DNA of 24,708 nt from a virus, in IMG/VR virus record IMGVR_UViG_3300037086_000054, positions 1-24,708 of that record; one strand, given 5' to 3'. Shown one piece after another: positions 3,127 to 23,846 of the stretch. Every line of letters begins with the position of its first letter. Position 1 is the stretch's first letter. The notes under the pieces were generated by a model. That model made no database searches, was not told where the DNA came from, and saw nothing but the letters and a program-made list of their open reading frames with translations. The translations under genes and the position numbers were made by a program.

Positions 3127-3256
3127 GCAAGAGAAAAAGCATTTTTGCCGTGAGCACCACATGAGTGGCAAGCGATACCGGGCACTACTGAAAAAAAGAA
3201 AGCGCGAATTTAAGGCCCAAGCCATAGCAAGTTCTGGGGTGTCAAATGAAGCTTAA
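3104..3256 (+). CDS. Very small basic protein, unknown
   Basis: This 50-residue ORF begins MQAYNPIKQEKKHFCREHH and is rich in Lys and Arg, with a KKRKRE run near the middle. It overlaps the preceding small ORF by 23 nt and the methyltransferase start by 11 nt, so it could couple translation between them. Single Cys and several His residues are present but no recognisable metal-binding spacing. No Shine-Dalgarno better than GCGAG is visible. It is kept because together with the gene at 2977 it closes the gap exactly. Confidence 0.45.
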   Translation: MQAYNPIKQEKKHFCREHHMSGKRYRALLKKRKREFKAQAIASSGVSNEA

Positions 3257-3683
3257 GCTCAATCTCGGCTGTGGGCAATACCGATTACCCGGATTTATCA
3301 ACCTCGACAAGATCGACGGCTGGACCTGGGAAAGTGGCTTGCCCTTTAAGGACGAATCTATTGATGCGATAACGGAATCACATAGTTTTATGTATATCAA
3401 GGATTCAGATTGGCCGTTTGTTTTTTCAGAATTGAAAAGAGTATTAAAACCTAGTGGCATTTTGCGGATAACAGAGGACGCAACAGACAATCCATTAAGC
3501 CTATGGTATAACGGACACCCTGAAGCTATTGCTCTTACCAGTTATGATAAAATAGCCGGTTATTTAGGAGATGGTTTTGAGGTATGGAAAACATTATTTA
3601 ACATTTCGGTTGATCCAACACTTTTGCAAAATTGGCACGGCGGAGAACCTAAAGTGTTTTTCTTAGAGGCGCGTAAATTATGA
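3246..3683 (+). CDS. Compact class I SAM-dependent methyltransferase (Methyltransf_11-like)
   Basis: This 145-residue protein has the Rossmann-fold methyltransferase core. Motif I is LNLGCGQYRLPGFINLD (residues 4-20), which contains the SAM-binding GCG loop and the acidic residue ending strand 2. GLPFKDESIDAITESHSF follows (strand 4 region), then ELKRVLKPSGILRI (post-motif helix and strand 5). This pattern is typical of enzymes that modify small molecules or sugars. It is shorter than most family members because the C-terminal cap is minimal. The last base of its frame overlaps the next gene as ATGA, so the two should be co-translated. The substrate may be the sugar or peptide built by the adjacent transferases; that is inference. 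Confidence 0.85.
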   Translation: MKLKLNLGCGQYRLPGFINLDKIDGWTWESGLPFKDESIDAITESHSFMYIKDSDWPFVFSELKRVLKPSGILRITEDATDNPLSLWYNGHPEAIALTSYDKIAGYLGDGFEVWKTLFNISVDPTLLQNWHGGEPKVFFLEARKL

Positions 3684-5590
3684 TTTCAGTAATAGTAATT
3701 CACCGGAAAAATGAATCATGGAAATTAACAGAAGAATCTCTGTTGGTTCAAAAGTCATTTGTGCCAATTACTATTATTGATTATGAGGATACAGATTTGC
3801 ATGGTTGTAGTTATGCCCGTAATCGTGGTTTTGAAAAATCCACTAAAAGCGATTTAGTTTTATTTTCCGATAACGATATTAATTGGAAACCTGATGCGCT
3901 CCAAGTAATGTGCGATACCCTCATTTCTAATCCTAAAGCCTCATACTGCTACGGCTCCTATATGATTGAGCGCGCAGATGGAACACTTTATAGCAACCAC
4001 CAAATGCCGCCAAGCTTCGACCCGAACATTCTTGTTAAAGGCAATTATATTTCGGCTATGACACTTATTCGCACAAGGGATTTCCCCGGATTTGATGAAA
4101 ATGTTGGGCGCTTGCAAGATTGGGATTTATGGCTTACTATGCTTGAGCAGGGCAAGATCGGCGTTGATTGTCATAAATTAATTTTCACTACGCTAGAGCG
4201 TGCCGGAATTACCAAGGAGGGCACGGAAACGTACCAAGAAGCACACGGCAAGGTTGTTGCAAGGCACAAGGCTTTATGTTCAACTGTTTTTATAAAGGCT
4301 GGCGCAAAATTCAAACAAACAGAATTATTCATTGCCCCTCATTGTGATGATGAAACTCTTTTTGGTGCATATACCATCATGGCTCGCAAGCCGCTTGTGG
4401 CAATATTCAACGATCAACAAGCAGGCAATATCAGCAACACACCAGAGCGCGAGGCAGAAAGTGCGGCGGCAATGCACTTTCTTGGCGTTGATGTTGTCTT
4501 TATAAATAACCTTGATGAGATAAGCGGTGATTTTGATATAGTATATGCGCCAATGCTTGAGCACGGACACCCCGGCCACGATTTCATTCATAACGCGGCA
4601 AAAGCAAAATATTCAAACGTCATTAATTATTCAACATATCGCTCCGGCACCGACCTATTACCGCGCGGACAGGTCAAGGTTGAAGCTACAGAAGAGATGA
4701 AACAGAAAAAGCTTGACACATTACTTTTTTATAAATCGCAAATAGCAGCAACACCATGCCACTTTATTCAGGCAAACAAAGATGAGTATATTGACCGCAA
4801 AATAGAAAATATTGCCATTTGTGCAATCGTGAAAGATGAAAACGAATATCTTGATGAATGGATTGCATATCACAAATCTATTGGAATAAATAATTTTATA
4901 CTGTATGACAATGAAAGCGCTATTCCGGTTAATTCTTCAATCAAGGATCATGAGGGCGTTTTAGTTATACCTATTATGGGAAAATATATGCAAGGAACGG
5001 CATATATGCGCTGTATTAGAAACTTTAAAAATAATTTTAATTGGATTGCGTTTATTGATGCTGATGAGTTTATTGTTATGAACGAATCTATCAATATAAA
5101 TGAAGCATTAAAAGAATACGAGTGCGAGCATGTTGGAGGGCTGGGAATCAACTGGCGATTTTTCGGAACGTCAGGACATATAACAAAACCAGATGGTGGA
5201 GTAATAAAAAATTATACACATTGCATTCCAAAAGCTAACGAAATTAGTGACCACATTAAAAGCATAGTGCATCCTAGAAAGGTTGTATCACTAATAACCG
5301 CTCACGCCTTCACATACAAACCAGACTATTACTGCGTCAATGAATTGCGACAAGCAATAAACAATACCGATATAGCGGGTAATAGCTTTAGTCCACACTC
5401 ATCTACCAAGTTTCAGATTAATCATTACTTTACTAAATCAAGTGCTGAATGGTACAATAAGATGAGGCGTGGACGTGCGGACTATCCTAAAGAAAGAACA
5501 ATGGATCAGTTTAACAATTACGAAAGTCAATGTACTGATGTTGATACATCAATTATGCAACGCATAGATGCAATAGAAAGAAGCAAGTAA
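3680..5590 (+). CDS. Three-domain enzyme: GT2 – PIG-L/LmbE deacetylase – GT92/DUF23-like transferase
   Basis: This 636-residue protein contains three separate enzyme signatures. Residues 1-200 form a GT2 domain: ISVIVIHRKNES start, FSDNDINW (62-69) as the metal site, and LQDWDLW (145-151) as the catalytic-base region. Residues 214-370 form a PIG-L/LmbE zinc deacetylase: APHCDDE (219-225) and GHPGHDF (296-302), equivalent to PHPDDE and the HPDH region; the second Asp is Gly here. Residues 376-600 resemble GT92/DUF23: AIVKDENEYLDEWIAYHKS (382-400), FILYDNES (406-413), FIDADEF (458-464) and NWRFFGTSGH (491-500). The order suggests sugar addition, N-deacetylation and a second sugar addition by one polypeptide. 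No membrane segments are seen. It overlaps both neighbours (ATGA, TAATG). Domain calls are strong; substrates are unknown. Confidence 0.87.
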   Translation: MISVIVIHRKNESWKLTEESLLVQKSFVPITIIDYEDTDLHGCSYARNRGFEKSTKSDLVLFSDNDINWKPDALQVMCDTLISNPKASYCYGSYMIERADGTLYSNHQMPPSFDPNILVKGNYISAMTLIRTRDFPGFDENVGRLQDWDLWLTMLEQGKIGVDCHKLIFTTLERAGITKEGTETYQEAHGKVVARHKALCSTVFIKAGAKFKQTELFIAPHCDDETLFGAYTIMARKPLVAIFNDQQAGNISNTPEREAESAAAMHFLGVDVVFINNLDEISGDFDIVYAPMLEHGHPGHDFIHNAAKAKYSNVINYSTYRSGTDLLPRGQVKVEATEEMKQKKLDTLLFYKSQIAATPCHFIQANKDEYIDRKIENIAICAIVKDENEYLDEWIAYHKSIGINNFILYDNESAIPVNSSIKDHEGVLVIPIMGKYMQGTAYMRCIRNFKNNFNWIAFIDADEFIVMNESININEALKEYECEHVGGLGINWRFFGTSGHITKPDGGVIKNYTHCIPKANEISDHIKSIVHPRKVVSLITAHAFTYKPDYYCVNELRQAINNTDIAGNSFSPHSSTKFQINHYFTKSSAEWYNKMRRGRADYPKERTMDQFNNYESQCTDVDTSIMQRIDAIERSK

Positions 5591-5838
5591 TGAGTATGCG
5601 TGGCGCATATCAACAGCGTACACTATGTGAGGTGTTGCGTGAGGTCAACGACCTAGTACAGGGCACACCACTACACGCGCCAGTGCTTGACAAGCTCAGA
5701 GAGGCAGAGGCTATGGCAAAGCGTATGGCATATAAGCTACTCGAATACAATAAGCAATGGGAAGATGATTGGTGGGCAGAGAATAAAGACTATGAGGATG
5801 ATCTGCGTAGACGCATGGCACAGTCATACCTAGCGTGA
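5590..5838 (+). CDS. Small helical protein, unknown
   Basis: This 82-residue protein is highly charged and predicted helical: an N-terminal half with REVNDLVQGTPLHAP and a second half rich in Glu, Asp, Lys and Trp (EDDWWAENKDYEDDLRRR). No family is recognised. Its ATG shares a base with the stop of the preceding three-domain gene (TAATG), which implies reinitiation and membership in the same operon. It is the last gene before the non-coding packaging leader. It may be an accessory subunit of the sugar-modifying enzymes or an ordinary small phage protein; the sequence does not decide. Confidence 0.65.
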   Translation: MSMRGAYQQRTLCEVLREVNDLVQGTPLHAPVLDKLREAEAMAKRMAYKLLEYNKQWEDDWWAENKDYEDDLRRRMAQSYLA

Positions 5839-5851
5839 GGATAGATTATAT

Positions 5852-5938
5852 ATGCACAAATATAAATTGACAAAAGGTACTCCGGGGGGTCTTTTAAAGA
5901 GGTTCAAGCGCCGCACTCGTAATTTTTGCGCAAAATGA
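5852..5938 (+). CDS. Doubtful 28-residue basic ORF in packaging leader
   Basis: The ORF reads MHKYKLTKGTPGGLLKRF and ends with a basic tail. AGGA (5838-5841) lies 10 nt upstream of its ATG. It contains the G6 run discussed as a candidate cos element. It may be an incidental frame across a DNA site instead of a gene. It is recorded because it is the only small ORF with an acceptable ribosome site in the leader. Confidence 0.25.
   Translation: MHKYKLTKGTPGGLLKRFKRRTRNFCAK
5878..5891. other. Candidate cos-region element (G6 run upstream of terS)
   Basis: TACTCCGGGGGGTC is an isolated GC block in an AT-rich 231-nt intergenic leader, about 180 nt before the small terminase gene. In lambda-like phages with this terminase family, the cohesive-end site lies just upstream of the small terminase gene, and overhangs are often GC-rich. 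The element has no other assigned role. Direct evidence of cleavage is absent, so this is a positional inference. Confidence 0.22.
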
Positions 5939-6011
5939 TAGTAAAAAGGGCATTTAGCTTGTTAAGGAAGGACATTTCCATTCTTTGTCGGTATGAAAAT
6001 AATCGTGACCA

Positions 6012-6020
6012 TGCTATAAA
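6012..6020 (+). promoter_or_regulatory. Possible extended -10 promoter for packaging genes
   Basis: TGCTATAAA (TGn plus TATAAA) is an extended -10 element. No good -35 lies at 16-18 nt; TTGTCG (5985-5990) is 24 nt away. Transcription would start near 6027 and give a ~43-nt leader before GTG 6070. The leader contains two GTTAAC sites (near 6030 and 6063) in a T/A-rich context, which might be regulator sites. Confidence 0.35.
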
Positions 6021-6069
6021 ATCAAGTTAACGTTAATTTAATTGATATATTTAATAGAATAGGTTAACC

Positions 6070-6540
6070 GTGAAAAAAATACCTCGCAAGCCTGGGCCGC
6101 AGGCGATGATACGGCATGAACTATCTGGATTTTTAATTATAGAGGTTGCGGCGATATTTGGGGTATCAGAGGCGGCTGTTTCTGCGTGGAAATGTCCGCG
6201 CGAAGCGGGTGGTAGCCTCAATCTTGGCGAAGTTATACGGTGGAGAGAAGCGCAGATTAGAAACAAGCCTACCGACCGCACAGATTTAGAGAAAGATAAA
6301 CTGCGGTTACAATGTGAAAAGATGCAGATTGAGATTGACGCATTGAAGGCGGAGAACATCCCGCTCGAAACCCATAAGCAAATAATGACTGGGCGCATGA
6401 TGAGTTTAAAGAATATGATGATTGAGTTTTTTGCTAAGAACCTGCATCACTTTGCACATAAAAGTATTGAGCAATTGCGGCCATTAATACAAGAGCATAT
6501 CGCCGCGTTGATGAACCATTACAGCAGTAACCATAAATGA
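6070..6540 (+). CDS. terS: Terminase small subunit
   Basis: This 156-residue protein has an N-terminal HTH (IIEVAAIFGVSEAAVSAWKC, about 23-42) of the kind used by small terminases (lambda Nu1 type) to recognise the packaging site. A long charged helix follows (DLEKDKLRLQCEKMQIEIDALKAEN, shown here only in part as DLEKDKLRLQ) that would mediate oligomerisation, and a C-terminal helical part that would contact the large subunit. It starts with GTG 6070 and only a weak upstream AGG; no better in-frame start is near. It overlaps the large terminase gene by 4 nt (ATGA). Family placement rests on the HTH plus coiled-coil layout and on position. Confidence 0.85.
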   Translation: MKKIPRKPGPQAMIRHELSGFLIIEVAAIFGVSEAAVSAWKCPREAGGSLNLGEVIRWREAQIRNKPTDRTDLEKDKLRLQCEKMQIEIDALKAENIPLETHKQIMTGRMMSLKNMMIEFFAKNLHHFAHKSIEQLRPLIQEHIAALMNHYSSNHK

Positions 6541-8483
6541 CAACAGAAATACCCGAAACAATCCTCCTTCCGCCCATCCTCAATGAAGATGTACCTTTTT
6601 GTTCTGAGGATGAGCGGTATGCGGCACGTATTTTGCCGATACCGATGCCTTCGGTTTGGGCCGAGGAAAACTTTTATCTTGTCGAGGGCGCAGGCTATGC
6701 CGCGACAGGGCGCATTACGCTTTACCCGTGGCAGCGGGAACCGCTCAATGCTATCTACTACTACAACCGGGTAATGCTTTGTGGGCCGGTGCAGACCGGT
6801 AAATCACTCCTAGCAGAAATGATGGTCTGGTATGTGGTTTGTAATATTCCTATGCACGGCATGTTTCTTTATGCCAAAAAGGATACGGTAGAGGACGTAT
6901 TCCAAGACCGCATAGTTCCCACCATCAAGGAGGTTCCGTGCATCCGTGCGCTCTGGGACGGCAACGAGGAACATTTAACGCAGTCAAAAATCAAATTGCG
7001 CAACGTAATCCTGCGGGTTGCTTCGGCAGAGGTGCAGAGCGATATTGCCACGTTTTCAGCTGGGCTTATCTATGCGTCCGAGGTGTGCAAATACCGGACG
7101 GCACAGATAGACACCAAGAGCAATTATGACAAGATCAAGCTCCTGCGTGGAAGGCAGGAAGCGTATGGTATCATGGGAAAGAAAAAGGAAATTTTAGAAT
7201 CAAGCCCAAAATTTAAAGGCGACACGCTACACCGTGAAATGTTTACGAGTGGGGTCACAAACCTAGTTCCAAAGTTTCCGTGTCCCACTTGCGGAATGTA
7301 TCAGCAACTTTTACTTGAACAAATAAAGGAGGTGCCAAATGCCAACAAAGAAAAAGACCACGACCCGGAGCGAATCCGGCGGGACGACGCGGCGTATTAT
7401 GAGTGCGCACATTGCGGGAATACAATCCAGGAAACAAAGCGCATCGAAATCGGGGAAAGGGTTGTCTGGGCAGAAAAAGATGAAGCCGTCGAGCGTGATG
7501 GTACAATTAAAAATCAGAAACCAAAACGGACAGCAATATCTTTTCAATGGTCTCGTCTCGTCGATTACAGTTTCAAATTCTCCGAGTGCCTCGCTCGCTT
7601 TTTCGAGGCTCAGCGATCAGGAGATCCTGTTAAATTGGTATCCTTTTTAAACGAGGATATGGGTGAGTTTGGGGAAATTTATGCCGAGGAAAGATCAACG
7701 TCGTGGTTGATGTCGAAAATAGCACAACCGCCATATAAAACAGCAGACGAAACAATACCGGCCGGTGTGCTGGTTGTTTTGTGTGGCATAGACACGCAGG
7801 ACAAGGGTTTTTATTTTGTTCTGCGTGGTTTCGGTGCTGGCAAAAGCTCGTGGTTGCTTGACTGCGATTGGATACCGGCAGATATGGACAACGGCAAAGA
7901 CCCGGATGTTGTTTTTAGTGCCGTGCGGGACAGGATAACCCGCAAGAAACTCGATACGGCGGATGGGCGCTCCCTGGCTATTACTTTGGGCCTGATTGAC
8001 CGCGGTGGGCATAAGGCGGCGTTTGTAGACCACATCGCGCGTAATTTGGAGTGGTTGGTTGTTGGTATCGGGTCAACCAGGGCACTTGCCCCGCTTTGTG
8101 AGCTTGGAAAGAATGATATTTATTGGGTGAACACCGAAAACTTATCCCGTATTGTTGATAGTGATAGTCAAAGGGAAGACTGGTATTTGCCGGAAGATGT
8201 CCCCAGTGAATATTTGAATCAGTTTGTAAAACAATATGACCGGGAAGAAATGGATAGACACGGGAATAAAAAAACAAAGCGCATAAAAGGGGGAAATGAC
8301 CACATGCGCGACTGCGAAAATTATATACAGGGCTGCGTGCAGATTTGCGGATTGAATGAATCTCTATTTGATGAGGTAGCAATGGACGAATTAAAACAAC
8401 CGGAAGAATCTGCCCCACCTCCACAAGAACAAAACAATACTTTTTTAGCCGGTATCCAAGAGCGGTACCGTAGAAGGGGATGA
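6537..8483 (+). CDS. terL: Terminase large subunit, GpA family (packaging ATPase/nuclease)
   Basis: This 648-residue protein is the DNA-packaging motor and nuclease. The N-terminal ATPase has the adenine/Q-like segment ITLYPWQREPL (60-70), Walker A GPVQTGKS (83-90), and a Walker B-like strand GLIYASEV ending in E182. A zinc ribbon follows, with CPTC (C249, C252) and CAHC (C290, C293), as is usual in the GpA family. The C-terminal nuclease shows VLCGIDTQDKGFYF (D419) and GLIDRGGHKAAFVDHI (D488, D498). Length is normal for lambda gpA (641 aa). ATG 6537 overlaps terS. GpA-type terminases generally cut at cos sites, which fits the candidate site upstream. Identification is very secure. Confidence 0.95.
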   Translation: MTTEIPETILLPPILNEDVPFCSEDERYAARILPIPMPSVWAEENFYLVEGAGYAATGRITLYPWQREPLNAIYYYNRVMLCGPVQTGKSLLAEMMVWYVVCNIPMHGMFLYAKKDTVEDVFQDRIVPTIKEVPCIRALWDGNEEHLTQSKIKLRNVILRVASAEVQSDIATFSAGLIYASEVCKYRTAQIDTKSNYDKIKLLRGRQEAYGIMGKKKEILESSPKFKGDTLHREMFTSGVTNLVPKFPCPTCGMYQQLLLEQIKEVPNANKEKDHDPERIRRDDAAYYECAHCGNTIQETKRIEIGERVVWAEKDEAVERDGTIKNQKPKRTAISFQWSRLVDYSFKFSECLARFFEAQRSGDPVKLVSFLNEDMGEFGEIYAEERSTSWLMSKIAQPPYKTADETIPAGVLVVLCGIDTQDKGFYFVLRGFGAGKSSWLLDCDWIPADMDNGKDPDVVFSAVRDRITRKKLDTADGRSLAITLGLIDRGGHKAAFVDHIARNLEWLVVGIGSTRALAPLCELGKNDIYWVNTENLSRIVDSDSQREDWYLPEDVPSEYLNQFVKQYDREEMDRHGNKKTKRIKGGNDHMRDCENYIQGCVQICGLNESLFDEVAMDELKQPEESAPPPQEQNNTFLAGIQERYRRRG

Positions 8484-8484
8484 C

Positions 8485-8694
8485 ATGGGACAAGGAAACA
8501 GGCCGTTACCACCGTTATCAACAAGACCGCTGCCTGAAGCAACTGTAGCGCCCGGGAAAGAGCGCCAAACAACAAGGCGGTGCCCAATTGCGCAAGTTGA
8601 GGAAATGATAAATCAAATGGCAAAGGACGGCTGGATTTTGGCACATTACATAGTTCAGCCGCCATGCGAGGCAATCCTGGTTTTTCAAAAATAA
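8485..8694 (+). CDS. Small DUF4177-like protein
   Basis: This 69-residue protein has a Pro-rich N-terminus (residues 6-21) and a C-terminal part, VEEMINQMAKDGWILAHYIV (38-57), followed by a strand ending in LVFQK. This helix, GW, strand, strand pattern resembles DUF4177-type small proteins, which have no known biochemical role. AGAAGGGG lies directly before ATG 8485, one base after the terL stop, so translation is credible. It is the last gene before the promoter and hairpin at 8705-8835 and does not correspond to a lambda gene. Confidence 0.7.
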   Translation: MGQGNRPLPPLSTRPLPEATVAPGKERQTTRRCPIAQVEEMINQMAKDGWILAHYIVQPPCEAILVFQK

Positions 8695-8704
8695 AAAATA
8701 ATTG

Positions 8705-8733
8705 TTGACATTAATACCCGAAATAGGTATATT
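8705..8733 (+). promoter_or_regulatory. Strong sigma70-type promoter inside the late operon
   Basis: A perfect TTGACA (8705-8710) is followed by 17 nt and TATATT (8728-8733), which makes it the best promoter match in the window. It lies in the gap after the DUF4177-like gene. Expected start of transcription is near 8740, about 40 nt before a long hairpin with T8. It can therefore drive either a short RNA or, with read-through, gpW, portal and capsid. Confidence 0.65.
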
Positions 8734-8739
8734 ATACAC

Positions 8740-8835
8740 AGATAAGGTTTTTTGCCCGAATAGTATTTGCTCTTTATAGAACCGAACAATGGATAATCAC
8801 GACTTGTCGTGGTTGCCTGTTGTCCGGTTTTTTTT
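8740..8835 (+). ncRNA. Candidate ~95-nt phage small RNA or attenuator leader
   Basis: The segment between the promoter at 8705-8733 and the terminator ending at 8835 has no credible ORF. Its 5' part (about 8740-8778) appears unstructured, and its 3' part is a single long stem-loop (8778-8831) with T8. This is the classic organisation of a stand-alone bacterial small RNA. The alternative is a leader whose terminator is overcome by antitermination to express the head genes. No known RNA family is recognised by eye, and 5'/3' ends are estimates. Confidence 0.45.
8779..8835 (+). terminator. Long intrinsic-terminator-like hairpin before gpW
   Basis: The outer stem pairs AACCGAACAA (8780-8789) with TTGTCCGGTT (8820-8829), with one A-C mismatch. 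A GG/CC pair and an inner stem follow, AATCACGA (8795-8802) with TCGTGGTT (8807-8814), closed by a CTTG loop and containing one G-U. Eight T (8828-8835) follow immediately. The hairpin ends 5 nt before the GGGGG ribosome site of gpW (8840-8844), so termination or folding here would affect expression of the head genes. Confidence 0.65.
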
Positions 8836-8849
8836 ATTTGGGGGCACGA

Positions 8850-9053
8850 ATGGCAATCACAGACGCAGAACTCGACGCAATAGATGATGCCGCAACCACA
8901 AACGCTGGCCGTGGTGCTAACGACGTATCCATAGGCGACCGGCGCGTCACCTATGCCGACCCGCTCAAGTTGCTTGAGGCGAAAAGGGCGTTGACAAATG
9001 AGGAGGAAGGCGGTGTTTTTCACCCGACCTTCATACAAAAGGGGTACTTTTAA
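8850..9053 (+). CDS. W: Head-tail joining protein, lambda gpW-like
   Basis: This 67-residue protein lies between terL and portal, exactly where lambda has W (68 aa). The pattern is an N-terminal helix, then DVSIGDRRVTYADPLKLLEAKRAL (given in part: IGDRRVTYADPLKLL), comparable with the gpW hairpin and following helix (DGRRVEFTATSVSDLKKYI in lambda). gpW plugs the portal channel after packaging and permits tail attachment. ATG 8850 is chosen because GGGGG (8840-8844) precedes it; the upstream in-frame TTG 8820 lies within the terminator hairpin. Its stop overlaps the portal start (TAATG). Confidence 0.8.
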   Translation: MAITDAELDAIDDAATTNAGRGANDVSIGDRRVTYADPLKLLEAKRALTNEEEGGVFHPTFIQKGYF

Positions 9054-10588
9054 TGCTCGGAATTGACAAATTACGTCAATTTTGGTTCGATTTCAGCCAA
9101 TACCGCAAGGGCGTTTTACCCAATAATAGGCATTTTCAGGAGCATTTTTCCCGGGAATTGGACGTTTTGACAAAGCGTTACTACCCCGCGGCAGACCTCG
9201 GAGCAATCCGAGCCGACTGGAACCCCTCAATTTTGGTTGACCAGAACATTCTCAGGCTTGAATATAGGCGTATTTTTGCCCGCGCAAAGCGAGCCTATGA
9301 CTGTGATCCGTTTGCCAAAGGTGCCGTAAGCGTGTTACAATCGCAAATCGTTGGAACAGGTATATCTCCGCGCTCAAAGCCTGTTGACAAAGACGGAAAC
9401 GTTGATGACAACATGGGTAAACTGCTAGACCGTTATTTTGAGCGGTTCGCGGATGAGTGTTTCAGGCCGGAGCATGATACGTTTTACGACATGCAGTCAA
9501 AAATGATAGCTAACTGTGCATATTCGGGCGGTTTGTTTTTAAACATGACCCCATCGAAAAAGAAATCACTTCTTCCATTCGCTTTTCAGACAATAGATCA
9601 ATCGTACATAGATTTTTCACACGACAATTTCGCCTTCCCTCAGAATCCATTTGTCTGTAACGGCGTTGAAGTAAATAACTTCTCTGAACCGCAACGATAC
9701 TACATGCAAGATCTTGTGAACTGGGCGTTCTTTGATTTACCAGCATCTAATGTAATTCACTGCTTTGATAAACTCCACGCAAACCAATACATCGGCATTC
9801 CCTGGCTCGCGCCGGTTCTCACGACACTATGGGATTTGAACCAATTGATGGAAGATAAAATAATTGGCTCACGAATGGCGGCGGCAATCGCCCTTTGGAT
9901 TGGAGAGTCAAACCCTTTTCCTAATAAAAACTCAAAAAATACCGACGGCAATGTTCCCTGGGCACCCGGCTCAGTATTTAAAGGAAAAACAAAACCAGAA
10001 GTAGTGCAGTCGGTTGATAATCTAAAAGACAGTTTTGCAATTCTTATTGAAATTTATTTACGCTCAATTGCAACGGGTATGCGGATTTCCTACCAGGAAC
10101 TTACCACCGATACGCAAGCGTCGGCGTTTTCTGCGTCTCGCACAGTAACAACCGACAGGCGCAGATACTACAGAAAAAAACAGGGCTTTATTGTTAAGCA
10201 ATACGGCAGACCAATTTATTACAACTTTGTAAAATGGTGTTTTCTTACCGGTTTAATTCCGGGAAAATCAATAACTGATTTTGTCGCCAATTCGTGGGGA
10301 TATACTCAGGCAATATGGACACCAGATAAATGGGATTGGGTAGATCCGCTCAAAGACATACAGGCGGCAATCGCGGAAAAGGATGCTGGCTGGTTGTCGG
10401 ACGAAAGTTATTGTGAGAGAACTGGCCAAAGTAAAGACGTACTATACCAAGAGTTGAAAGACGAAAAAGACGAACGGAAAAAACTAGGGATTGAGATTCA
10501 GCCCCTAGTGGCGGTTAAGCCGAAAACATTAACTGGCGATTTGGAAGAAAACCAACAAGAGGAAGGTGGTAACAATGCCAAAAAGTAA
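9053..10588 (+). CDS. Portal protein, lambda gpB family
   Basis: This 511-residue protein would form the dodecameric ring at the unique capsid vertex through which DNA enters and leaves. Family landmarks are AKGAVSVLQSQIVGTGISPR in the N-terminal third, the AFQTIDQSYID-type wing, SNVIHCFDKLHANQYIGIPW in the middle, and a C-terminal stretch with SAFSASRTVTTDRRRYYRKK, then GRPIYYNFVKW and FLTGLIPG, which matches the clip/stem end of Phage_portal_2 proteins. Length is close to lambda gpB (533 aa). GGGG precedes ATG 9053 by about 7 nt. The C-terminal tail is charged and Glu/Asn-rich. Its end overlaps the protease-capsid gene. Very secure. Confidence 0.95.
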   Translation: MLGIDKLRQFWFDFSQYRKGVLPNNRHFQEHFSRELDVLTKRYYPAADLGAIRADWNPSILVDQNILRLEYRRIFARAKRAYDCDPFAKGAVSVLQSQIVGTGISPRSKPVDKDGNVDDNMGKLLDRYFERFADECFRPEHDTFYDMQSKMIANCAYSGGLFLNMTPSKKKSLLPFAFQTIDQSYIDFSHDNFAFPQNPFVCNGVEVNNFSEPQRYYMQDLVNWAFFDLPASNVIHCFDKLHANQYIGIPWLAPVLTTLWDLNQLMEDKIIGSRMAAAIALWIGESNPFPNKNSKNTDGNVPWAPGSVFKGKTKPEVVQSVDNLKDSFAILIEIYLRSIATGMRISYQELTTDTQASAFSASRTVTTDRRRYYRKKQGFIVKQYGRPIYYNFVKWCFLTGLIPGKSITDFVANSWGYTQAIWTPDKWDWVDPLKDIQAAIAEKDAGWLSDESYCERTGQSKDVLYQELKDEKDERKKLGIEIQPLVAVKPKTLTGDLEENQQEEGGNNAKK

Positions 10589-12653
10589 AGACCAAGATGA
10601 ATACATTGTAAGCAAATTACCGGAAGGTTTTGCTTCCCGCGCTTTCACGCCTGCGAGTTATGACGAAAAAGCAAGGTGTGTGCGTGCTACGGTTTGGAGC
10701 GAAGACCCGGTGCGCGTTTATGACGGAGCAACCGATCAAATAATCATGGAAGTTCTCAGGGCGGATGGTTGTCAATTGCCGACTCGTGGACAGCTTCCAC
10801 TCCTCGACAATCACAACCGGTGGAACGGTAGCGGATCGGTGCGCGGCTCTGTGCGTGACTTAGTTCAACAGGCCGACGGCTCAATGCAGGGGAATGTATA
10901 CTTTTCGTCAACCGCCGAGCCTGAAAACACGCTTGCGCGCGAGGGACATCTTACTGATCTTTCGACAGGATACCAGACTTTTAATCGTACCGAAGGAACA
11001 GTATGGATACCAGATGGTCAACGCGCAACCGTAAACGGAAAGGAATATATAAACAACCACGGTATGCCAATGGCGATTAGAACCATGTGGAAACCGTTTG
11101 AAATTTCGACAACGCCAATAGGCGCGGATGAAAGGTGTTCATTCCGCGAATCATCCACAATAAAAAAAGGAGAGAGGAACATGCCTGAAGAAAAAAAGCC
11201 GGTGGAAACACCAGCACAGGCTCCCGCGCCGGAAAGCATCGACGTGGTAGCCATTCGTACAGCCGCAGCGAAAGAGGCTGGCGAGGCTGAGCGTGGCCGC
11301 ATCCTGAATATCAGGTCGGCAGCGGGCGAGCTGAAAATACCTGACACGTTTTACGATCCGCTCATTACATCGGGCGTAACGGAAACGGAAGCAATCAGGA
11401 AAATGACGGTAGAGGCGCAGCGACTTATGCAGGTTGCCCCCGTGCAGAAGCCGGACATCCAAAGCGGCAAAGATGAAACGGAAAATCGGCGCGAGGGTAT
11501 GCTTAATGGCATTCTTCTCCGCACCAATTATCCGTTTGAAAATGCCGAAACGCGGAAGAAAATTTCTGCGGATGTCGCCAAGTCCGATTTTAATGGCATG
11601 ACTGGTCCCCAAGCACTTGCAAAAAAGTGTTTGGAAAATGCTGGCGTGCGGGGTGCCACATACATGGATAATGTGGAAGTGGCGAAGCAGATTCTTTCGC
11701 TGTCATCCCGCGCCGTGGCGCAGGGCACTGGCGATTTTCCGTACATTCTTGCCGCAGCCGCCAACAAGTTCCTGATGCTCGGATACAACGAGCAGAACGT
11801 AACGTGGGACAAGTGGGTGGGCCGTCAGCCGCTCAACGATTTCAAACAGAACAAGCTGGTGAATATCAGCCTGTTCTCGGATGTTGATCTTGTTAAAGAA
11901 GGCGAGTCGTTCTCATGGGGAAAACAGGCTGACAAGGGCGAATACGCAACGCTGTACAAATATGGGAAGGCGTTTCTGCTTTCCTACGAGGCTATTGTCA
12001 ACGACGACAAATATGCCTTCTCGCGTATTCCTAGGAACATGGCCGGTGCCATGAACCGCAAGCAGAACCGTACAACATACGACTATCTGTATGGTGCAAC
12101 CGGTGTCGGCCCCGCTATGAACGAGGACAGCCTGTATATGTTCGACGCGACCGCAACAACCGGTCACGCAAACCTTTTGACAGGTGCCGTTCCGTCTATT
12201 GCTGCGCTCAATCTCATGCGGAAGGCGTTAAGGAAGATCAAACTTCCTGCCCCCGACAAGACGAGCAAAACGCAATATTCCAACGCCCCGATCAAGTACA
12301 TCATCACCGGAACCACATACGAGACATCGCTCCAGCAGCTCTTGATGTCCCCCGGCGATCCTGCGCTGACCAACGCCGCAATTATCAACCCGTTCCAGGG
12401 TTCATTTACCCCCGTAATTGATCCTGTCCTGGACGAATACGATACCAACGCGGCTCCGTTGTGGTACGTAGCGACGGACCCGAACATTGTGCAGCATATT
12501 GCAATGTTCACGCTCGCCGGCGAAGAGGCCCCGCAGCTTCGCAGCGAGCCGAGCGAAATTGGCATGGCACGCGGCATAGCATGGGAACTCATGTTCTCGT
12601 TCTGTGTTGCGGCCGAAGATTGGCGCGGAATGGTGAAAAATCCTGGACATTAA
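10575..12653 (+). CDS. Prohead protease–major capsid protein fusion
   Basis: This 692-residue protein combines maturation protease and shell protein. The N-terminal 200 residues match the U35/HK97-type prohead protease: PLLDNHN (H80) and HLTDLSTGYQTF (S130) as the catalytic His and Ser, with KPFEISTTPIGAD (173-185) as the following conserved strand. Residues about 195-330 are a charged, Ala/Glu-rich region suited to a scaffold or delta domain. Residues about 380-692 form a HK97-fold major capsid protein (NKFLMLGYNEQNVTWDKW, IPRNMAGAMNRKQNRTTYDY, C-terminal RGIAWELMFSFC). Such single-chain fusions are known in phages. ATG 10575 has AGGAAGG 8 nt upstream; GTG 10566 is less likely. An internal ribosome site near 11170 could also give capsid alone. 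Confidence 0.92.
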   Translation: MPKSKDQDEYIVSKLPEGFASRAFTPASYDEKARCVRATVWSEDPVRVYDGATDQIIMEVLRADGCQLPTRGQLPLLDNHNRWNGSGSVRGSVRDLVQQADGSMQGNVYFSSTAEPENTLAREGHLTDLSTGYQTFNRTEGTVWIPDGQRATVNGKEYINNHGMPMAIRTMWKPFEISTTPIGADERCSFRESSTIKKGERNMPEEKKPVETPAQAPAPESIDVVAIRTAAAKEAGEAERGRILNIRSAAGELKIPDTFYDPLITSGVTETEAIRKMTVEAQRLMQVAPVQKPDIQSGKDETENRREGMLNGILLRTNYPFENAETRKKISADVAKSDFNGMTGPQALAKKCLENAGVRGATYMDNVEVAKQILSLSSRAVAQGTGDFPYILAAAANKFLMLGYNEQNVTWDKWVGRQPLNDFKQNKLVNISLFSDVDLVKEGESFSWGKQADKGEYATLYKYGKAFLLSYEAIVNDDKYAFSRIPRNMAGAMNRKQNRTTYDYLYGATGVGPAMNEDSLYMFDATATTGHANLLTGAVPSIAALNLMRKALRKIKLPAPDKTSKTQYSNAPIKYIITGTTYETSLQQLLMSPGDPALTNAAIINPFQGSFTPVIDPVLDEYDTNAAPLWYVATDPNIVQHIAMFTLAGEEAPQLRSEPSEIGMARGIAWELMFSFCVAAEDWRGMVKNPGH
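11168..11183 (+). promoter_or_regulatory. Internal ribosome-binding site at protease-capsid junction
   Basis: AGGAGAGAGGAACATG is an excellent Shine-Dalgarno and start codon, in frame with the fusion at residue 203 (ATG 11181). Initiation here would give a 490-residue protein without protease, beginning MPEEKKPVETPAQ. This parallels lambda C/Nu3, where an internal start makes scaffold separately from protease. It is a prediction from sequence strength and position. Confidence 0.5.
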
Positions 12654-12664
12654 TCCAGGTAATG

Positions 12665-12717
12665 AAGGGTCTTTATTGACCCCTTGAAAGCCCCCTCGCA
12701 TAGAGGGGGCATTATTT
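12665..12717 (+). terminator. Tandem hairpins after the capsid gene
   Basis: The first hairpin pairs AAGGGTC (12665-12671) with GACCCCTT (12678-12685), with one bulge. The second has a perfect 8-bp GC-rich stem, GCCCCCTC (12690-12697) and GAGGGGGC (12703-12710), followed by ATTATTT. The T tract is interrupted, so this may be a leaky terminator or an mRNA 3'-end stabiliser that sets capsid mRNA above connector mRNA. No clear promoter follows before the gene at 12748. Confidence 0.5.
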
Positions 12718-12747
12718 AAAAAACAATCAAGCAAAAGGAGAATTAAA

Positions 12748-13143
12748 ATGGCTTTAACAGTATCAAGAAGGGTGAGAGAGTTGGAGGCTACTGACGTAAT
12801 ACAGTATGTCAACAACAGCGGAAGCGCAATTGCCAACAATCAGGTTATTTTTATTGCTGGCGATAGCGGATACGGTATCGTTGCGGTTTCTCAGGAAGTT
12901 GTTGCTGCTACAGCCGGGACAATCGGCTCGGCAATTGTTAAGGGCATTGTGGAACTTCCTACAACCGCCATAGCAATCACGCAGGGCGAAATGGTGTACG
13001 CAGCTACAGCGGGCACCAGTGTGTCTCTTACAACGGCAAGCGGCTCTTATTCTATCGGTATGGCTGTCGAGACTGTCGCGTCTACTGTTGCCTATGTAAA
13101 GGTTGACCTGAACTACGGGCCGACCGCATTCAAGGTTTGGTAA
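12748..13143 (+). CDS. Capsid decoration/cement protein, DUF2190-like
   Basis: This 131-residue protein is rich in small residues and beta strands. The segment VKGIVELPTTAIAITQGEMVYAATAG (given in part: GIVELPTTAIAITQGEMVY, about 67-85) matches the DUF2190 pattern of a Gly-Val-phe-elp strand, an aITqGd turn and a vYw strand. DUF2190 proteins occur next to major capsid genes and are thought to decorate or stabilise the shell, as lambda gpD does. AAAGGAG precedes the ATG. It is separated from the capsid gene only by the tandem hairpins. Confidence 0.75.
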   Translation: MALTVSRRVRELEATDVIQYVNNSGSAIANNQVIFIAGDSGYGIVAVSQEVVAATAGTIGSAIVKGIVELPTTAIAITQGEMVYAATAGTSVSLTTASGSYSIGMAVETVASTVAYVKVDLNYGPTAFKVW

Positions 13144-13149
13144 TTTCAG

Positions 13150-13491
13150 ATGGCGCTTGATTTGATGCGTGATATGGATATGGTCTTTCTGGCTAACGGC
13201 TTTGAGGAGACCATAACTGCTACTCCCCCCACCGGAGCACCTGTTGTCATAAAGGCGCAGGTGTTCCGGGGTGGAGTAAATAATATCAATTTACTTATCA
13301 AGGGCCAGGCCGAAAGCGAAAAGAAATACGAGGTTGAAATCTATGTCTCACGTACCGACGTTCCTATTGCCAGAGTAAATCAGTATAAGTTTTTGCTCAA
13401 AAAACATTTAAGCGATGCGACGGATACGGTTTTTCTTGTTGGTGGGTTGATTCGAGAAGATGAAGGAGCCTTAAGGCTTGGACTACAATGA
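13150..13491 (+). CDS. Putative head-tail connector, lambda FII-like
   Basis: This 113-residue protein lies after the decoration protein, in the lambda FII position. It has an N-terminal helix, then beta-rich segments: PVVIKAQVFRG, YEVEIYVSRTDVP, and a final DTVFLVGGLIREDEGALRLGL. The last part resembles the closing hairpin of FII-type adaptor proteins (117 aa in lambda). Such proteins sit between the gpW/portal and the tail terminator ring. There is no strong ribosome site 6 nt after the previous stop, so coupling is likely. It overlaps the next gene as ATGA. The assignment rests mainly on order, length and fold pattern. Confidence 0.6.
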   Translation: MALDLMRDMDMVFLANGFEETITATPPTGAPVVIKAQVFRGGVNNINLLIKGQAESEKKYEVEIYVSRTDVPIARVNQYKFLLKKHLSDATDTVFLVGGLIREDEGALRLGLQ

Positions 13492-14186
13492 TAAAAAGGG
13501 AACTCTATGATCCTGGCCGCGTTCTTTTTGCGTTTCGCAAAGCTCCTCAAATTTTTGCAGAGGCTATTGATTATTGGCTCAATAAGGAGCGTGTCGCGTT
13601 TCTTGGAAAAGACATCAAAAACCGCGAAAGCACGAAAGGTATTAGGGGTAAATTGTTCCACAAACCCCTGTTTGCGGGACGAATATCAAGTATGGGAGAA
13701 GAGGGTTGGTCGCCACAAATTGTCGGGCAGTTCAAAAGTTTCAAAAAAGAAAAAGGCGGATTAAACGTATCGTTGACAATGGAGTTTGCACGTGGGCCAA
13801 TGGAACCGGCGATGCAACTTGAGGAAACGGGCGGAGATATTTCGTCCGATAAGTTCATGCCGATGCCGATGTATCGCAATCTGGCAAATATTGGGATAGC
13901 AACAAATAGGCATGGCGCATTCAAGGAAATGGCCGCAGCGGGGGAGCTTACCCCAATAAAACCGAAGGGCGATCCAGATACGCTCTTATGGTTTTACAAT
14001 AAAGGCGGATATAGGAGCTTGGCTTTTGTAGGGAAGAAAAACATACACGTCAAAAAACAATTTGATTTTCACGCTACTTGGGCGCGCCGGTTAATGAGCG
14101 TGATGCAACGAGGACAAAAGGCAGCGGATACGGCGACGCGCAAGGTTGAAAAGTTGATTGCAACCGGGGATATAAGCGGTTTGTAA
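13488..14186 (+). CDS. Putative tail completion/minor tail protein, lambda Z position
   Basis: This 232-residue protein occupies the position of lambda Z or HK97 gp10-like tail completion proteins, and its layout is compatible. There is a helical N-terminus (ALFAFRKAPQIFAEAIDYWL type), a central beta-rich part (VSLTMEFARGPMEPAMQLEE), and a C-terminal helix that includes FHATWARRLMSVMQRGQKAA. It would act at the head-tail junction during joining. The family cannot be fixed by eye. ATG 13488 overlaps the preceding stop and the gene ends 1 nt before the next ATG. Confidence 0.55.
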   Translation: MIKRELYDPGRVLFAFRKAPQIFAEAIDYWLNKERVAFLGKDIKNRESTKGIRGKLFHKPLFAGRISSMGEEGWSPQIVGQFKSFKKEKGGLNVSLTMEFARGPMEPAMQLEETGGDISSDKFMPMPMYRNLANIGIATNRHGAFKEMAAAGELTPIKPKGDPDTLLWFYNKGGYRSLAFVGKKNIHVKKQFDFHATWARRLMSVMQRGQKAADTATRKVEKLIATGDISGL

Positions 14187-14187
14187 T

Positions 14188-14937
14188 ATGTCAAATCCAA
14201 CCTATGTAATATCAATCAGCACACAACCACTATCCGGTGGTTTTATTATTGGGGGGACATGTACTCTATCTGTTGTTGCTGCGACAACTCCTCCCGGCGG
14301 TACACTTACTTATCAATGGAACAAAGCAGGCACGCCAATAACTGGCGCAACAAACGCCTCTTTAATTTTAAGTTCCATGACAGCCACTGACGCAGCAAGT
14401 TATACATGCACGGTATCATGTTCCGGTTCGGTTGATGTTGTTAGCTCGGCAGCGGTGCTCGTTCTTGATTCTATTGTTGCGGCGATTATTAGAAACCGCA
14501 AGGCTGCGCTCGCTGTAATATCTACCACAAACGGGGCGAGTTTTACACCGCTTGCGGTTGAAGAAGAACGGTTGACGCTGAATATCAATGGACGTTATCC
14601 TTATGGTTTGCTCTTGAAAGCGCCTATTGAACCTAATGAAGAAGACAACCGGCGCGATGAGGTTGATATTGCGATAATGATATGCTGGTTTTTTCTATAC
14701 AACGATGACGACCAAACCCTTGACGAAATAACTTATCAATACCGCAATGTAGTTGCCGATACCGTAAAAGCCTGGATGCTTGACCGTACAATCGGTGGCC
14801 TTATGGAAGGTACGCGCATGGTGGGCAATGACCAGGGAGTCGCGGAAGACAACAAAGGTAATTTATGTTATCGCGTTGATGTTGCTTTTCATGTTCATGG
14901 ATTTATTGATTCTGATAACCCTTATTTGAAAGGATAA
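14188..14937 (+). CDS. Tail terminator (gpU-like) with N-terminal Ig-like domain
   Basis: This 249-residue protein has two parts. Residues about 5-94 form an immunoglobulin-like domain: GTCTLSV (C25), LTYQWNKAGTPITGA (W44) and ATDAASYTCTVS (D68, Y72, C74), which are the two canonical cysteines, core Trp and DxxxYxC signature. Residues about 95-249 resemble tail terminators: an N-terminal helix (SIVAAIIRNRKAALAVI), a strand ERLTLNINGRYPYGLLL, the segment DEVDIAIMICWFF, and a helix VVADTVKAWMLDRTIGGLME. Lambda U is only 131 aa, so the Ig domain accounts for the excess. Ig domains on phage virions are thought to project outwards and bind carbohydrate or surfaces weakly. The position after the Z-like gene fits U. 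Confidence 0.7.
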   Translation: MSNPTYVISISTQPLSGGFIIGGTCTLSVVAATTPPGGTLTYQWNKAGTPITGATNASLILSSMTATDAASYTCTVSCSGSVDVVSSAAVLVLDSIVAAIIRNRKAALAVISTTNGASFTPLAVEEERLTLNINGRYPYGLLLKAPIEPNEEDNRRDEVDIAIMICWFFLYNDDDQTLDEITYQYRNVVADTVKAWMLDRTIGGLMEGTRMVGNDQGVAEDNKGNLCYRVDVAFHVHGFIDSDNPYLKG

Positions 14938-14942
14938 AAAAT

Positions 14943-15236
14943 ATGGAACGCATAATTGCGCAGATGATTGATGCAATGCAGCCAATGAAAAACCCTATAA
15001 AGGTGGACATTTCTGGCGCTGATTTTACTAATATTGGAACATGCCAGATTAAAGCAATTTCGAGCGCACAAAGCACAACAGGAAACGTTATTGTCATGGT
15101 GGATATTTTGGCAGATGATGGCGTTACATATACCAATGTTGCCATCCCAGGGCCAGGAGTATTTACGGTAGAGGGAATAACAAAAGTGAGGCAATCTGGA
15201 ACAACAGCGACAAATATTGTTCTCTGGAAAATATAA
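14943..15236 (+). CDS. Small beta-rich protein between tail terminator and tail tube
   Basis: This 97-residue protein is not recognised. It has a short N-terminal helix (MERIIAQMIDAMQPM) followed by beta-rich sequence (VIVMVDILADDGVTYTNVAI, then FTVEGITKVRQS and NIVLWKI). The gene stands 5 nt after the U-like gene and 30 nt before the tail tube gene, so a virion or tail-assembly role is likely. It has no lambda counterpart at this position. TTGACA occurs just downstream (15242-15247) but without a -10 partner. Confidence 0.65.
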   Translation: MERIIAQMIDAMQPMKNPIKVDISGADFTNIGTCQIKAISSAQSTTGNVIVMVDILADDGVTYTNVAIPGPGVFTVEGITKVRQSGTTATNIVLWKI

Positions 15237-15266
15237 ACTTATTGACAACCTGAAAGGGGCCATCCA

Positions 15267-16229
15267 ATGATTCAAAAGTTAGAACTCTTTTTGTACAAAG
15301 CACAAACATCGCTAAATTATGACTACACCGCAGCGGGTGCAGCGACGTTTGCTGGAACCGACCTTCTCGAATGTCTTGCAGGTTCAAAGATTGATTCCGA
15401 GCCGGAAGTTGAAACCGTGGTAAATGTGGCCGGCGCACTCGACCAGGACCCGGCGATCCCTGGCCGTGAACCATCCAAGGGCACCATTAACATGAAGATG
15501 ACCCCGGCGCTGAATGCTGGAAAAACTTTGCCACCGTGGGCTGTCATGCTCTGCGGTTCATGCGCGTTTACATCGGCGGCAACGACTAACAATCCTGCCC
15601 CATCGAATTTTGAACTAACACCGGTATCTGTGTTTACCGTTGCGGGTATCCTCGCATATTATACCGGCAACCTCGAAACAAGTGGCTCGCTCATTTTCAA
15701 GCATTATAACCTTGTTGGCGACTGGAAAATCAGTATCAATGCTAACAAAGCCCCTGAAATTTCATTCACTCTTGATGGTGCATTTTACGGTCAGACGACC
15801 GGAACGCAGCCGAGTGTTACCAAGGGACGCACAAGTGCATTAGCGTTTAAAGGGGCTACAATCAACATAGGCGGTGTTTCCACCTACAAATTGATAAGCG
15901 CAGAGATAACCGGTAACCAGGTACCACAGACCACGGAAGCCCCCGATCAGGCCAATGGCATGGGTTATTCGACGATAACCGATCGTAAGATAAAGTTTAC
16001 GGCAAAAGTTTATTCCACGACAGTAGAAGACCCAAAAACTGCGATCCGCAACTCCACAGAGGGTGCCATTGATTTTAAATGGGGCTCAGCTGGAACCGCT
16101 GTTGAAATAAAGGGTAGCTATTCGCAGCTTACAAAGTGCGCCGGGTCAGAACAAAACGGTATCCATACATGGGATTTAGAAGGTCAATGGAACAGAAACG
16201 ACTTTAAAATTGACCTGAACCCAGCTTAA
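15267..16229 (+). CDS. Major tail (tube) protein, lambda gpV position
   Basis: This 320-residue protein has the composition and length of a major tail tube subunit, which stacks in hexameric rings around the tape measure. Typical features are the short N-terminal stretch before FAGTDLLECLAG, the loop PAIPGREPSKGTINMKMTPA, alternating strands (GDWKISINANKAPEISFTLD), and a C-terminal strand ending in DLNPA. GAAAGGGG is upstream of ATG 15267. It lies directly before the G/GT chaperone genes, as lambda V does. No clear Ig-like domain is visible here, unlike lambda gpV. The product call relies on position and general pattern. Confidence 0.8.
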   Translation: MIQKLELFLYKAQTSLNYDYTAAGAATFAGTDLLECLAGSKIDSEPEVETVVNVAGALDQDPAIPGREPSKGTINMKMTPALNAGKTLPPWAVMLCGSCAFTSAATTNNPAPSNFELTPVSVFTVAGILAYYTGNLETSGSLIFKHYNLVGDWKISINANKAPEISFTLDGAFYGQTTGTQPSVTKGRTSALAFKGATINIGGVSTYKLISAEITGNQVPQTTEAPDQANGMGYSTITDRKIKFTAKVYSTTVEDPKTAIRNSTEGAIDFKWGSAGTAVEIKGSYSQLTKCAGSEQNGIHTWDLEGQWNRNDFKIDLNPA

Positions 16230-16257
16230 TAATTTTCATTTCTAAGGAGGTTGAGAA

Positions 16258-16617
16258 ATGAGTATACCCCTATCAAGCGCGCCGGTTGTCTATACCGACA
16301 AGGATACCGGCGTTCGCTATTTTCTCCGGCCGTCTTGCGGCGAAACCGAAACCCTTATGTTCGATCTTCTCGACTCTTTGCCGCAAGGTAAAAAAGAGCG
16401 CGAGCAGCATTTTACTAAAAACCGCAAGGAAGTAATGCGCTTTGATGACGCATCAATCGACATTATTCTCAGTGGGTGGGAATCGGACAAGGTGAAGCTT
16501 CCGCCGTTTCCAAAAGATGGCAGGCCGTCCCAAATGATGAAATGGGACTTAAAGGTTGCTATTTTGAGTTTTTATAACAGTCAGAAAACGTTTTCAGGGG
16601 AAGAAATAAAAAAATAG
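16258..16617 (+). CDS. G: Tail assembly chaperone, lambda gpG-like
   Basis: This 119-residue protein is the short product of a G/GT pair. Its sequence (VYTDKDTGVRYFLRPSCGET, then LPQGKKEREQHF, and ILSGWESD near residue 80) fits the small acidic/basic chaperones that coat the tape measure before tube assembly. AAGGAGG (16242-16248) gives a strong start. The gene ends in ATA AAA AAA TAG, so the stop lies directly behind a slippery heptamer and a fraction of ribosomes should continue in the -1 frame to make the GT form. Lambda G is 140 aa. Confidence 0.8.
   Translation: MSIPLSSAPVVYTDKDTGVRYFLRPSCGETETLMFDLLDSLPQGKKEREQHFTKNRKEVMRFDDASIDIILSGWESDKVKLPPFPKDGRPSQMMKWDLKVAILSFYNSQKTFSGEEIKK
16608..16614 (+). 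other. Programmed -1 frameshift site (A AAA AAA)
   Basis: The heptamer A AAA AAA in the G frame has the X XXY YYZ form at which both P- and A-site tRNAs can re-pair one base back. The 0-frame stop TAG follows at once (16615-16617), which favours pausing. AGGGGA (16596-16601) lies 6 nt upstream and may act as an internal Shine-Dalgarno stimulator, as in dnaX. A small TTGC/GCAA hairpin follows. After the shift the frame stays open to 17000. Confidence 0.75.
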
Positions 16618-18936: not shown

Positions 18937-19820
18937 GTTCGCCAAGATACGTTACGTTTACAGCTGGTGCCAATAGCATACAGATTGACATGCCTACCTA
19001 TGGCTATTCTTGCGAAATTGTAATGCCGATTTCGAGCGCACAGGATGCAAATGGTGGATATTCGTTTTTTGATCCGCCAGCATCAGCGGAAGATTCAACG
19101 CTCGGAACTTTCGATTATCGTATTCTTAATACAGCTACATGGAGAATACCCGTATCACAGCAGATAAGTTTGTCAGCATTTTTCAGGGATGCCAACAAGG
19201 GGCGCGGTGAACCGGTTACGATGACGCTCCAAGCCAATTCAGGTTTTTATCCGTTCGGCCCTGACCTGGGAGATACCGGAGCGTTTACCGTGCAACTACT
19301 TTCTCAGGATCAAAGTGGTAGACTCGGAAAGCCGTGGAACTATTTTGAAAATAGCATATATCTTGTCTTAATAACTCCCCCGGTCGGTTATTCGTTACCT
19401 GCTGAAATAAAAGAAGGAAATCTCTCAATTGGAACCGTTACCGGCTTACGCTACTGCGATTTTTCACCAAAGACATTGCGAAATATTAAAAGTGGTCTTA
19501 CATTATCCGGCGTTCCTTACGTGGTTGATGGCACAACCGGGGGAGACTCCTACGAAACATCATGGACGCAGCTTTGCAATCAGGGGAAATCGGCGTCGCT
19601 TACGGCTTTCCTTGTCTCAACCTCCGGCAGGGCGAGCGATATTTCAATCGTAACGCCGTCGAATTTTTATGTGGCTGGAATAGATAATTGGTCAAGCGGT
19701 ACTTACAACATGAAATTACTAGGTTCATCTCCTAGTTCAAAAACAATATCATTAAAACTCACGCATGATGGATTCAACAGATGGAGTATTCCACTAAACT
19801 TTTGGATGAACCCAAACTGA
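18933..19820 (+). CDS. Putative minor/distal tail protein
   Basis: This 295-residue beta-rich protein follows the tape measure, where lambda has M and L and other siphoviruses have the distal tail protein. Sequence pieces such as YVTFTAGANSIQIDMPTYG, FDYRILNTATWRIPVSQQ and a C-terminal LKLTHDGFNRWSIPLNFW suggest a sheet-dominated ring or tip subunit, but I recognise no family. The start is GTG 18933 with GAGG at 18924-18927 and a GTGA overlap with the tape measure stop. Role is inferred from place only. Confidence 0.6.
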   Translation: MSSPRYVTFTAGANSIQIDMPTYGYSCEIVMPISSAQDANGGYSFFDPPASAEDSTLGTFDYRILNTATWRIPVSQQISLSAFFRDANKGRGEPVTMTLQANSGFYPFGPDLGDTGAFTVQLLSQDQSGRLGKPWNYFENSIYLVLITPPVGYSLPAEIKEGNLSIGTVTGLRYCDFSPKTLRNIKSGLTLSGVPYVVDGTTGGDSYETSWTQLCNQGKSASLTAFLVSTSGRASDISIVTPSNFYVAGIDNWSSGTYNMKLLGSSPSSKTISLKLTHDGFNRWSIPLNFWMNPN

Positions 19821-23388: not shown

Positions 23389-23492
23389 TTCAGGATTGTT
23401 ATGTAGCGATTGACAGCCTTGAAAAATGGCAGAATTACTATCGCAATCCTGATTTGTACGAGGTAATACAAGATATGGAGAAAGGTTCTTAA
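23373..23492 (+). other. T9 tract and -1-frame C-terminal extension of the tail-tip gene
   Basis: The big tail gene ends GCT TTT TTT TTA GCA TAA over nine T (23373-23381). In the -1 frame, reading continues after TTT as SIIQDCYVAIDSLEKW and on to KGS before TAA at 23490-23492, adding 36 residues. That frame has no ATG, GTG or TTG start near its beginning, and its amino-acid content looks protein-like. Possible explanations are -1 slippage by ribosome or polymerase on T9, or a homopolymer sequencing error (T10 would join the frames). An inverted repeat, CAGGATTG (23391-23398) and CAATCCTG (23444-23451), lies within it. Confidence 0.5.
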
Positions 23493-23493
23493 T

Positions 23494-23838: not shown

Positions 23839-23846
23839 GAACCCGT

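Follow-up and report, generated by a model that had tools for sequence, protein, structure and literature searches.

Viral polypeptides that combine several glycan-building domains on one chain have been described in the chlorovirus PBCV-1, in which the 638-aa protein A064R comprises three domains of ~200 aa (two rhamnosyltransferases and a methyltransferase) and A111/114R contains three glycosyltransferase (GT) domains (PMC9614988, PMC7826918). Among bacterial viruses, mycobacteriophages of the Che8 type encode glycosyltransferases and carry glycans on their virion proteins (PMC11256854). The PIG-L/LmbE deacetylase superfamily is defined by an HxD1D2 motif together with a distal His, with an Asp acting as the base (PMC4101496). 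Outside this defining motif, MshB retains 1% or less of its activity without Asp146, and rat PIG-L tolerates the substitution H154A (PMC4101496).

We analysed a 24,708-base virus record (hereafter the window). It is a linear piece of DNA from an uncultivated tailed phage and encodes a lambda-type terminase, a portal, a protease-capsid fusion and a tape measure protein. The plus-strand frame at positions 3680-5590 translates to 636 aa with no internal stop, and this single chain joins a complete short GT2 domain (residues ~1-200), a complete compact PIG-L/LmbE domain (~214-372) and a GT92/GT2_4-type transferase domain (~375-620). The same three domains had been proposed from the DNA letters alone (the sequence-only reading), and the proposal is borne out by Pfam profiles and, for PIG-L, by the further evidence described below. 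The five motifs that it listed lie at the residues claimed, namely FSDNDINW (62-69), APHCDDE (219-225), GHPGH (296-300), FIDADEF (458-464) and FFGTSGH (494-500). Fragments were misplaced when the full protein was globally aligned with single-domain homologues, and that alignment played no part in the folding; a phmmer search of P0001 against the PDB returned repeat-protein noise only.

The GT2 domain (3680-4276, ~199 aa) matches Glycos_transf_2 (PF00535) at residues 41-109 (E 5e-10, 39.9 bits against a cut-off of 23.3). The profile match, the DxD motif at D64/D66 and an acidic catalytic-base-type motif, QDWDLWLT (146-153), together place the domain in GT2. A separate local alignment with phage homologues showed D64, D66, R144, Q146, D147, W148, D149, W151 and L152 to be conserved in 14 of 14. 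Stand-alone homologues of this domain are about 190 aa long.

At the other end of the chain, the GT92-type domain (4802-5587, plus strand) carries the motif D460-A-D462-E-F. Glyco_transf_92 (PF01697) was detected at residues 389-595 (E 8e-15, 55.6 bits against a cut-off of 23), within the interval 376-600 where the sequence-only reading had expected it. Glyco_tranf_2_4 (PF13704, GT2_4) also exceeds its cut-off, at residues 385-474 (E 1e-13), so that no sharp line separates the two families here. Homologues 37-39% identical to this domain occur in three phage contigs (L030, L076 and L077), and another is present in a 595-kb phage (L033); D-x-D-E-F is invariant among the four aligned members. 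An AlphaFold model built from only four sequences reached a pLDDT of just 33, and the sequence profile matched galactan synthase (8d3t) in the PDB only at E 0.02. In another phage contig, a protein of 1662 aa in which several GT domains are combined (L016:5094-10079, contig 3300033388_005412) contains an intein at residues 335-518 (Pfam Intein_splicing, E 5e-14, above cut-off). Inteins usually reside in DNA-handling proteins; the host protein here is a glycosyltransferase.

The central PIG-L domain (4319-4795, plus strand) is the least conspicuous to profile searches. In the full protein, the Pfam PIG-L profile matches residues 216-276 at E 4e-4 and 21.2 bits, under the cut-off of 28.2, and the domain scanned alone scores 26.6 bits, still slightly under it. 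We therefore rely on the subfamily to which the domain belongs. An alignment-based scan gave 42 viral loci; 36 members were aligned, and 35 of these match PF02585 (best E 4e-14). Searching the PDB with the subfamily profile recovers solved LmbE deacetylases (2ixd, E 1.8e-8; 1uan, 6e-7; 6p2t BshB, 7e-7). An AlphaFold2 model of the domain has the LmbE-type Rossmann-like alpha/beta fold (pLDDT 91.2, pTM 0.88), and all eight of its top Foldseek matches in the PDB are LmbE, BshB or diacetylchitobiose deacetylases (probability 1.00, TM-score up to 0.67). Thus, the PIG-L domain is real, far beyond chance.

The alignment also bears on the suggestion of the sequence-only reading that substitutions in the motifs may alter activity. 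Both substitutions are present, Cys222 at the x position of HxDD and Gly299 in place of the Asp of HPDH (MshB Asp146), which lies outside the defining motif. However, residue 222 is Asn in 33 members and Cys in three, the window included, so that Cys is tolerated, and residue 299 varies across the subfamily (Q in 12, H in 12, D in 8, G in 2, L in 1 and I in 1). The idea that HPGH is a sign of inactivation was accordingly rejected. The predicted metal ligands (H221, D224 and H300) and predicted base (D223) are invariant in all 36 members, as are P220, E225, R257, E260, Y320, K344, Y351 and Q354. By the published definition the predicted HxDD plus distal His metal site is complete, and the domain belongs to the PIG-L superfamily. 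The compact (~160 aa) phage subfamily is distinguished by a PHNDDE motif in most members, a G[HN]xxH motif with no fixed Asp, and a distal Y-x-[ST]-Q.

The closest relative of the window's PIG-L domain is a 146-aa single-domain gene that is 62% identical (contig L002). In tblastn searches of 50,697 phage records, this sequence and that of L049 gave no match, and the window's own domain gave only a sub-threshold, 31%-identical partial match (E 0.5). Searched with two PIG-L sequences, bacterial and archaeal genomes gave no match, and the 36-member profile gave nine matches in them, mostly weak; the best (L078) is in a GT-dense contig, perhaps itself viral, from a Moraniibacteriota metagenome bin. 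PIG-L in phages is not new as such, because distant phage LmbE proteins are present in the Foldseek viral library. The contig of the closest relative also has a GroEL-like chaperonin frame (L002:609-2030, recognized by eye from its translation). Genes of similar appearance encoding GT2-TPR-GT4 proteins of 760-777 aa adjoin PIG-L on that contig and on the metagenome-bin contig (L002:2318-4600, L078:2268-4601).

The fusion gene lies near the end of a glycan cassette that stands upstream of the terminase operon, adjoins it and shares its strand. The first gene of the block (383-883) encodes a hydrophobic membrane-type segment; by hydropathy, the cassette transferases contain none. It is followed by a second GT2 gene (889-1638, 249 aa, Pfam E 3e-8) and by a gene for a 446-aa GT41-type glycosyltransferase resembling O-GlcNAc transferase (OGT) and SPINDLY (1635-2975). 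The product of the latter belongs to GT41 by its match to Glyco_transf_41 (PF13844, E 4e-12, 45.7 bits against a cut-off of 25); its best PDB match is a bacterial TPR protein (5djs, E 3e-13, residues 112-388), with OGT and SPINDLY ranking lower, and tblastn found no match to the gene among the 50,697 phage records. A small SAM-methyltransferase (MT) gene (3246-3683, 145 aa, Pfam Methyltransf_11 E 3e-8) comes next; its stop and the fusion gene's start overlap, and the stop of the fusion gene is in turn overlapped by the start of a small gene (5590-5838), called as an open reading frame with no function assigned. The terminase small and large subunit genes (6070-8483; phrog_57 E 5e-5, phrog_15 E 3e-60) then begin the packaging and head operon. 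The GC content of the cassette is 0.386, against 0.458 in the remainder of the window, and counts of promoters and terminators were at or near chance level.

A search seeded with TerL retrieved related contigs that stop at the right edge of the cassette, and assemblies may break there because the cassette varies between strains. One such contig (3300038461_000025, G001, 18,807 bases) is 100% identical to the window over the stretches compared (5902-16480 and 20000-24708); it shares the window's right end and starts at window position 5902, directly to the right of the cassette. L034, which is more distantly related, begins there too. Elsewhere in the window, two adjoining late genes encode large proteins that have no Pfam or PHROG match (19822-23388, 1188 aa, and 18933-19820, 295 aa).

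The MT is the more constant partner, and it had been overlooked in the sequence-only reading. The window MT is 37-43% identical to the MT domains of seven phage proteins (L053, L058, L062, L065, L066, L069 and L072) and to the product of a gene in L002; it is of the same family as the MT that other phages join to GT2 and PIG-L. Fusions of the type GT2-MT-PIG-L occur in L053, L058, L062, L065 and L069, PIG-L-MT in L057, L066 and L072, and GT2-TPR-PIG-L in L046; in those fusion proteins that were scanned, GT2 and PIG-L exceed their Pfam cut-offs. The MT family is found within 1.5 kb of 20 of 39 PIG-L loci and of 5 of 26 GT2-only loci (Fisher p 0.009), a ratio that is indicative only, the MT profile being broad. 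In L002 the same activities are encoded by separate genes in the order GT2 (187 aa), MT, second MT, PIG-L and GT2, with a homologous MT between the first GT2 and PIG-L. The gene after PIG-L has a start codon that overlaps the PIG-L stop, so that little would have to change for neighbours of this kind to become fused. The window fusion probably arose in this way, by the joining of adjacent overlapping genes; its PIG-L domain abuts the GT92 domain with almost no linker, at the point where single-gene relatives end and start.

In the PIG-L tree, whose bootstrap is not fully settled, the four fusion types sit apart on different branches, and we therefore conclude that fusion occurred independently about four times. 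Such repetition is a good reason to place GT2, PIG-L and the small MT in one pathway. Because relatives encode the domains as neighbours or in other fusions, the domains of the window protein probably act on one shared oligosaccharide. The sequence-only reading had gone further and taken the domain order to suggest a reaction order, such as GlcNAc transfer, conversion to GlcN and then extension on the amino sugar. Domain order gives no support to this, since relatives permute the activities (GT2-MT-PIG-L, PIG-L-MT, GT2-TPR-PIG-L, or separate GT2, MT, MT and PIG-L genes). Nor is the identity of the sugars readable from sequence.

Each domain of the fusion is predicted to be active. We consider it an even call that the protein is a soluble trifunctional glycan-building enzyme whose product is a methylated, amino-sugar-bearing glycan on virion proteins. 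In such a pathway, the GT41-like enzyme would most likely begin glycan synthesis on a phage protein, while the GT2 and GT92 domains would lengthen the glycan, PIG-L would strip the N-acetyl group from a HexNAc to leave a free amine, and the MT would cap a hydroxyl or amine. A single chain would keep the enzymes in fixed proportions and allow intermediates to pass between domains. Virion proteins are the target we favour, on three grounds: the enzyme of initiating type is GT41-like, all the transferases are soluble, and PIG-L genes of other phages repeatedly lie close to structural genes (those for the major head protein, the head-tail adaptor and the terminase). Both the sugars and the choice between virion protein and host envelope as target are inferences, and the contig, being a fragment, may lack other genes that would decide the target.

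The same enzyme could instead remodel a host surface glycan (capsule, O-antigen or wall polymer), blocking superinfection or changing the cell surface, a role often assigned to phage glycosyltransferases (PMC10202952). Nucleotide-sugar epimerases and aminotransferases, which also adjoin PIG-L in phages, fit surface polysaccharides and virion glycans alike, and the neighbours include RmlD/polysaccharide-synthesis and DegT families; one GT92 relative lies beside a GHMP-kinase/cytidylyltransferase sugar-activation gene, and the membrane-type segment of gene 383-883 points the same way. However, the window showed no undecaprenyl-phosphate sugar transferase, flippase or polymerase, and the solubility of the transferases, the adjoining late structural genes and the protein-glycosyltransferase-like GT41 gene make a host-surface target less likely than the virion. 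Sugar addition to phage DNA bases as an escape from restriction is also a role sometimes given to phage glycosyltransferases (PMC10202952). Among the profiled window proteins, no base-hypermodification gene was identified. The transferases are of the GT2, GT41 and GT92 types rather than T4-type DNA glucosyltransferases, and we regard a DNA target as very unlikely.

Two further explanations concern the fusion protein itself. The PIG-L domain could lack deacetylase activity and serve as a sugar-binding module or scaffold between two transferases, as its Gly299, its shortness (~160 aa compared with 227-272 in solved enzymes) and its weak single-sequence Pfam score might suggest. Yet a role of the fold alone would not keep the metal site invariant, and with ligands, base and the residues R257, E260, Y320, K344, Y351 and Q354 unchanged across 36 diverse members we think a scaffold quite improbable. 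That the frame is an assembly chimera or mis-joined is scarcely credible: both junctions lie in open frame, start and stop overlap with both neighbouring genes, and comparable fusions exist in other phages. On the other side, no second contig spanning the domain junctions was found, the identical contig starting only at 5902, and the GT92 part has a lower GC content (0.350) than the GT2 (0.409) and PIG-L (0.422) parts, which is a weak hint of a different origin.

Returning to virion glycosylation, a broader and more doubtful proposal is that a group of unisolated phages bears virion glycans with free amines and methyl caps, made by a repeatedly fused PIG-L/MT/GT module, with the window protein acting as a transfer-deacetylate-transfer line after an OGT-like start on protein. 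If true, this would amount to a new virion chemistry, with phage particles displaying sugars that are methylated and positively charged. The repeated fusion offers a testable function for a phage deacetylase subfamily of which about 40 uncultivated phage contigs carry a member and isolated phages, under the queries applied, gave none.

Viral scans found no further GT2-PIG-L-GT92 chain, and titles and abstracts of the phage literature hold no description of one that we could find. The GT2-MT-PIG-L fusions of uncultivated viral contigs (L053, L058, L062, L065 and L069) likewise join GT2 and PIG-L on one chain and use the same MT family, but they have an internal MT, a longer type of GT2 and no GT92. 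With MshB, BshB/BcZBP, TT1542 and diacetylchitobiose deacetylase (PF02585), the window PIG-L shares the fold and the HxDD...H metal site, and it differs from these solved enzymes in being compact, fused to transferases and devoid of a fixed Asp in the third motif. The glycosylated virions of Che8-type mycobacteriophages are a parallel by analogy only. Compared by layout, the protein resembles chlorovirus A064R, a single three-domain viral polypeptide of nearly equal length (638 against 636 aa) that builds consecutive parts of one glycan in a pathway that also includes a methyltransferase. Unlike A064R, it has a predicted PIG-L deacetylase between two transferases, its methyltransferase is encoded by a separate overlapping gene, and it comes from a bacterial virus. 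If its target is the virion, phage particles would carry de-N-acetylated, methylated glycans, and the window protein would parallel, in a bacterial virus, the trifunctional glycan enzymes that giant algal viruses encode.
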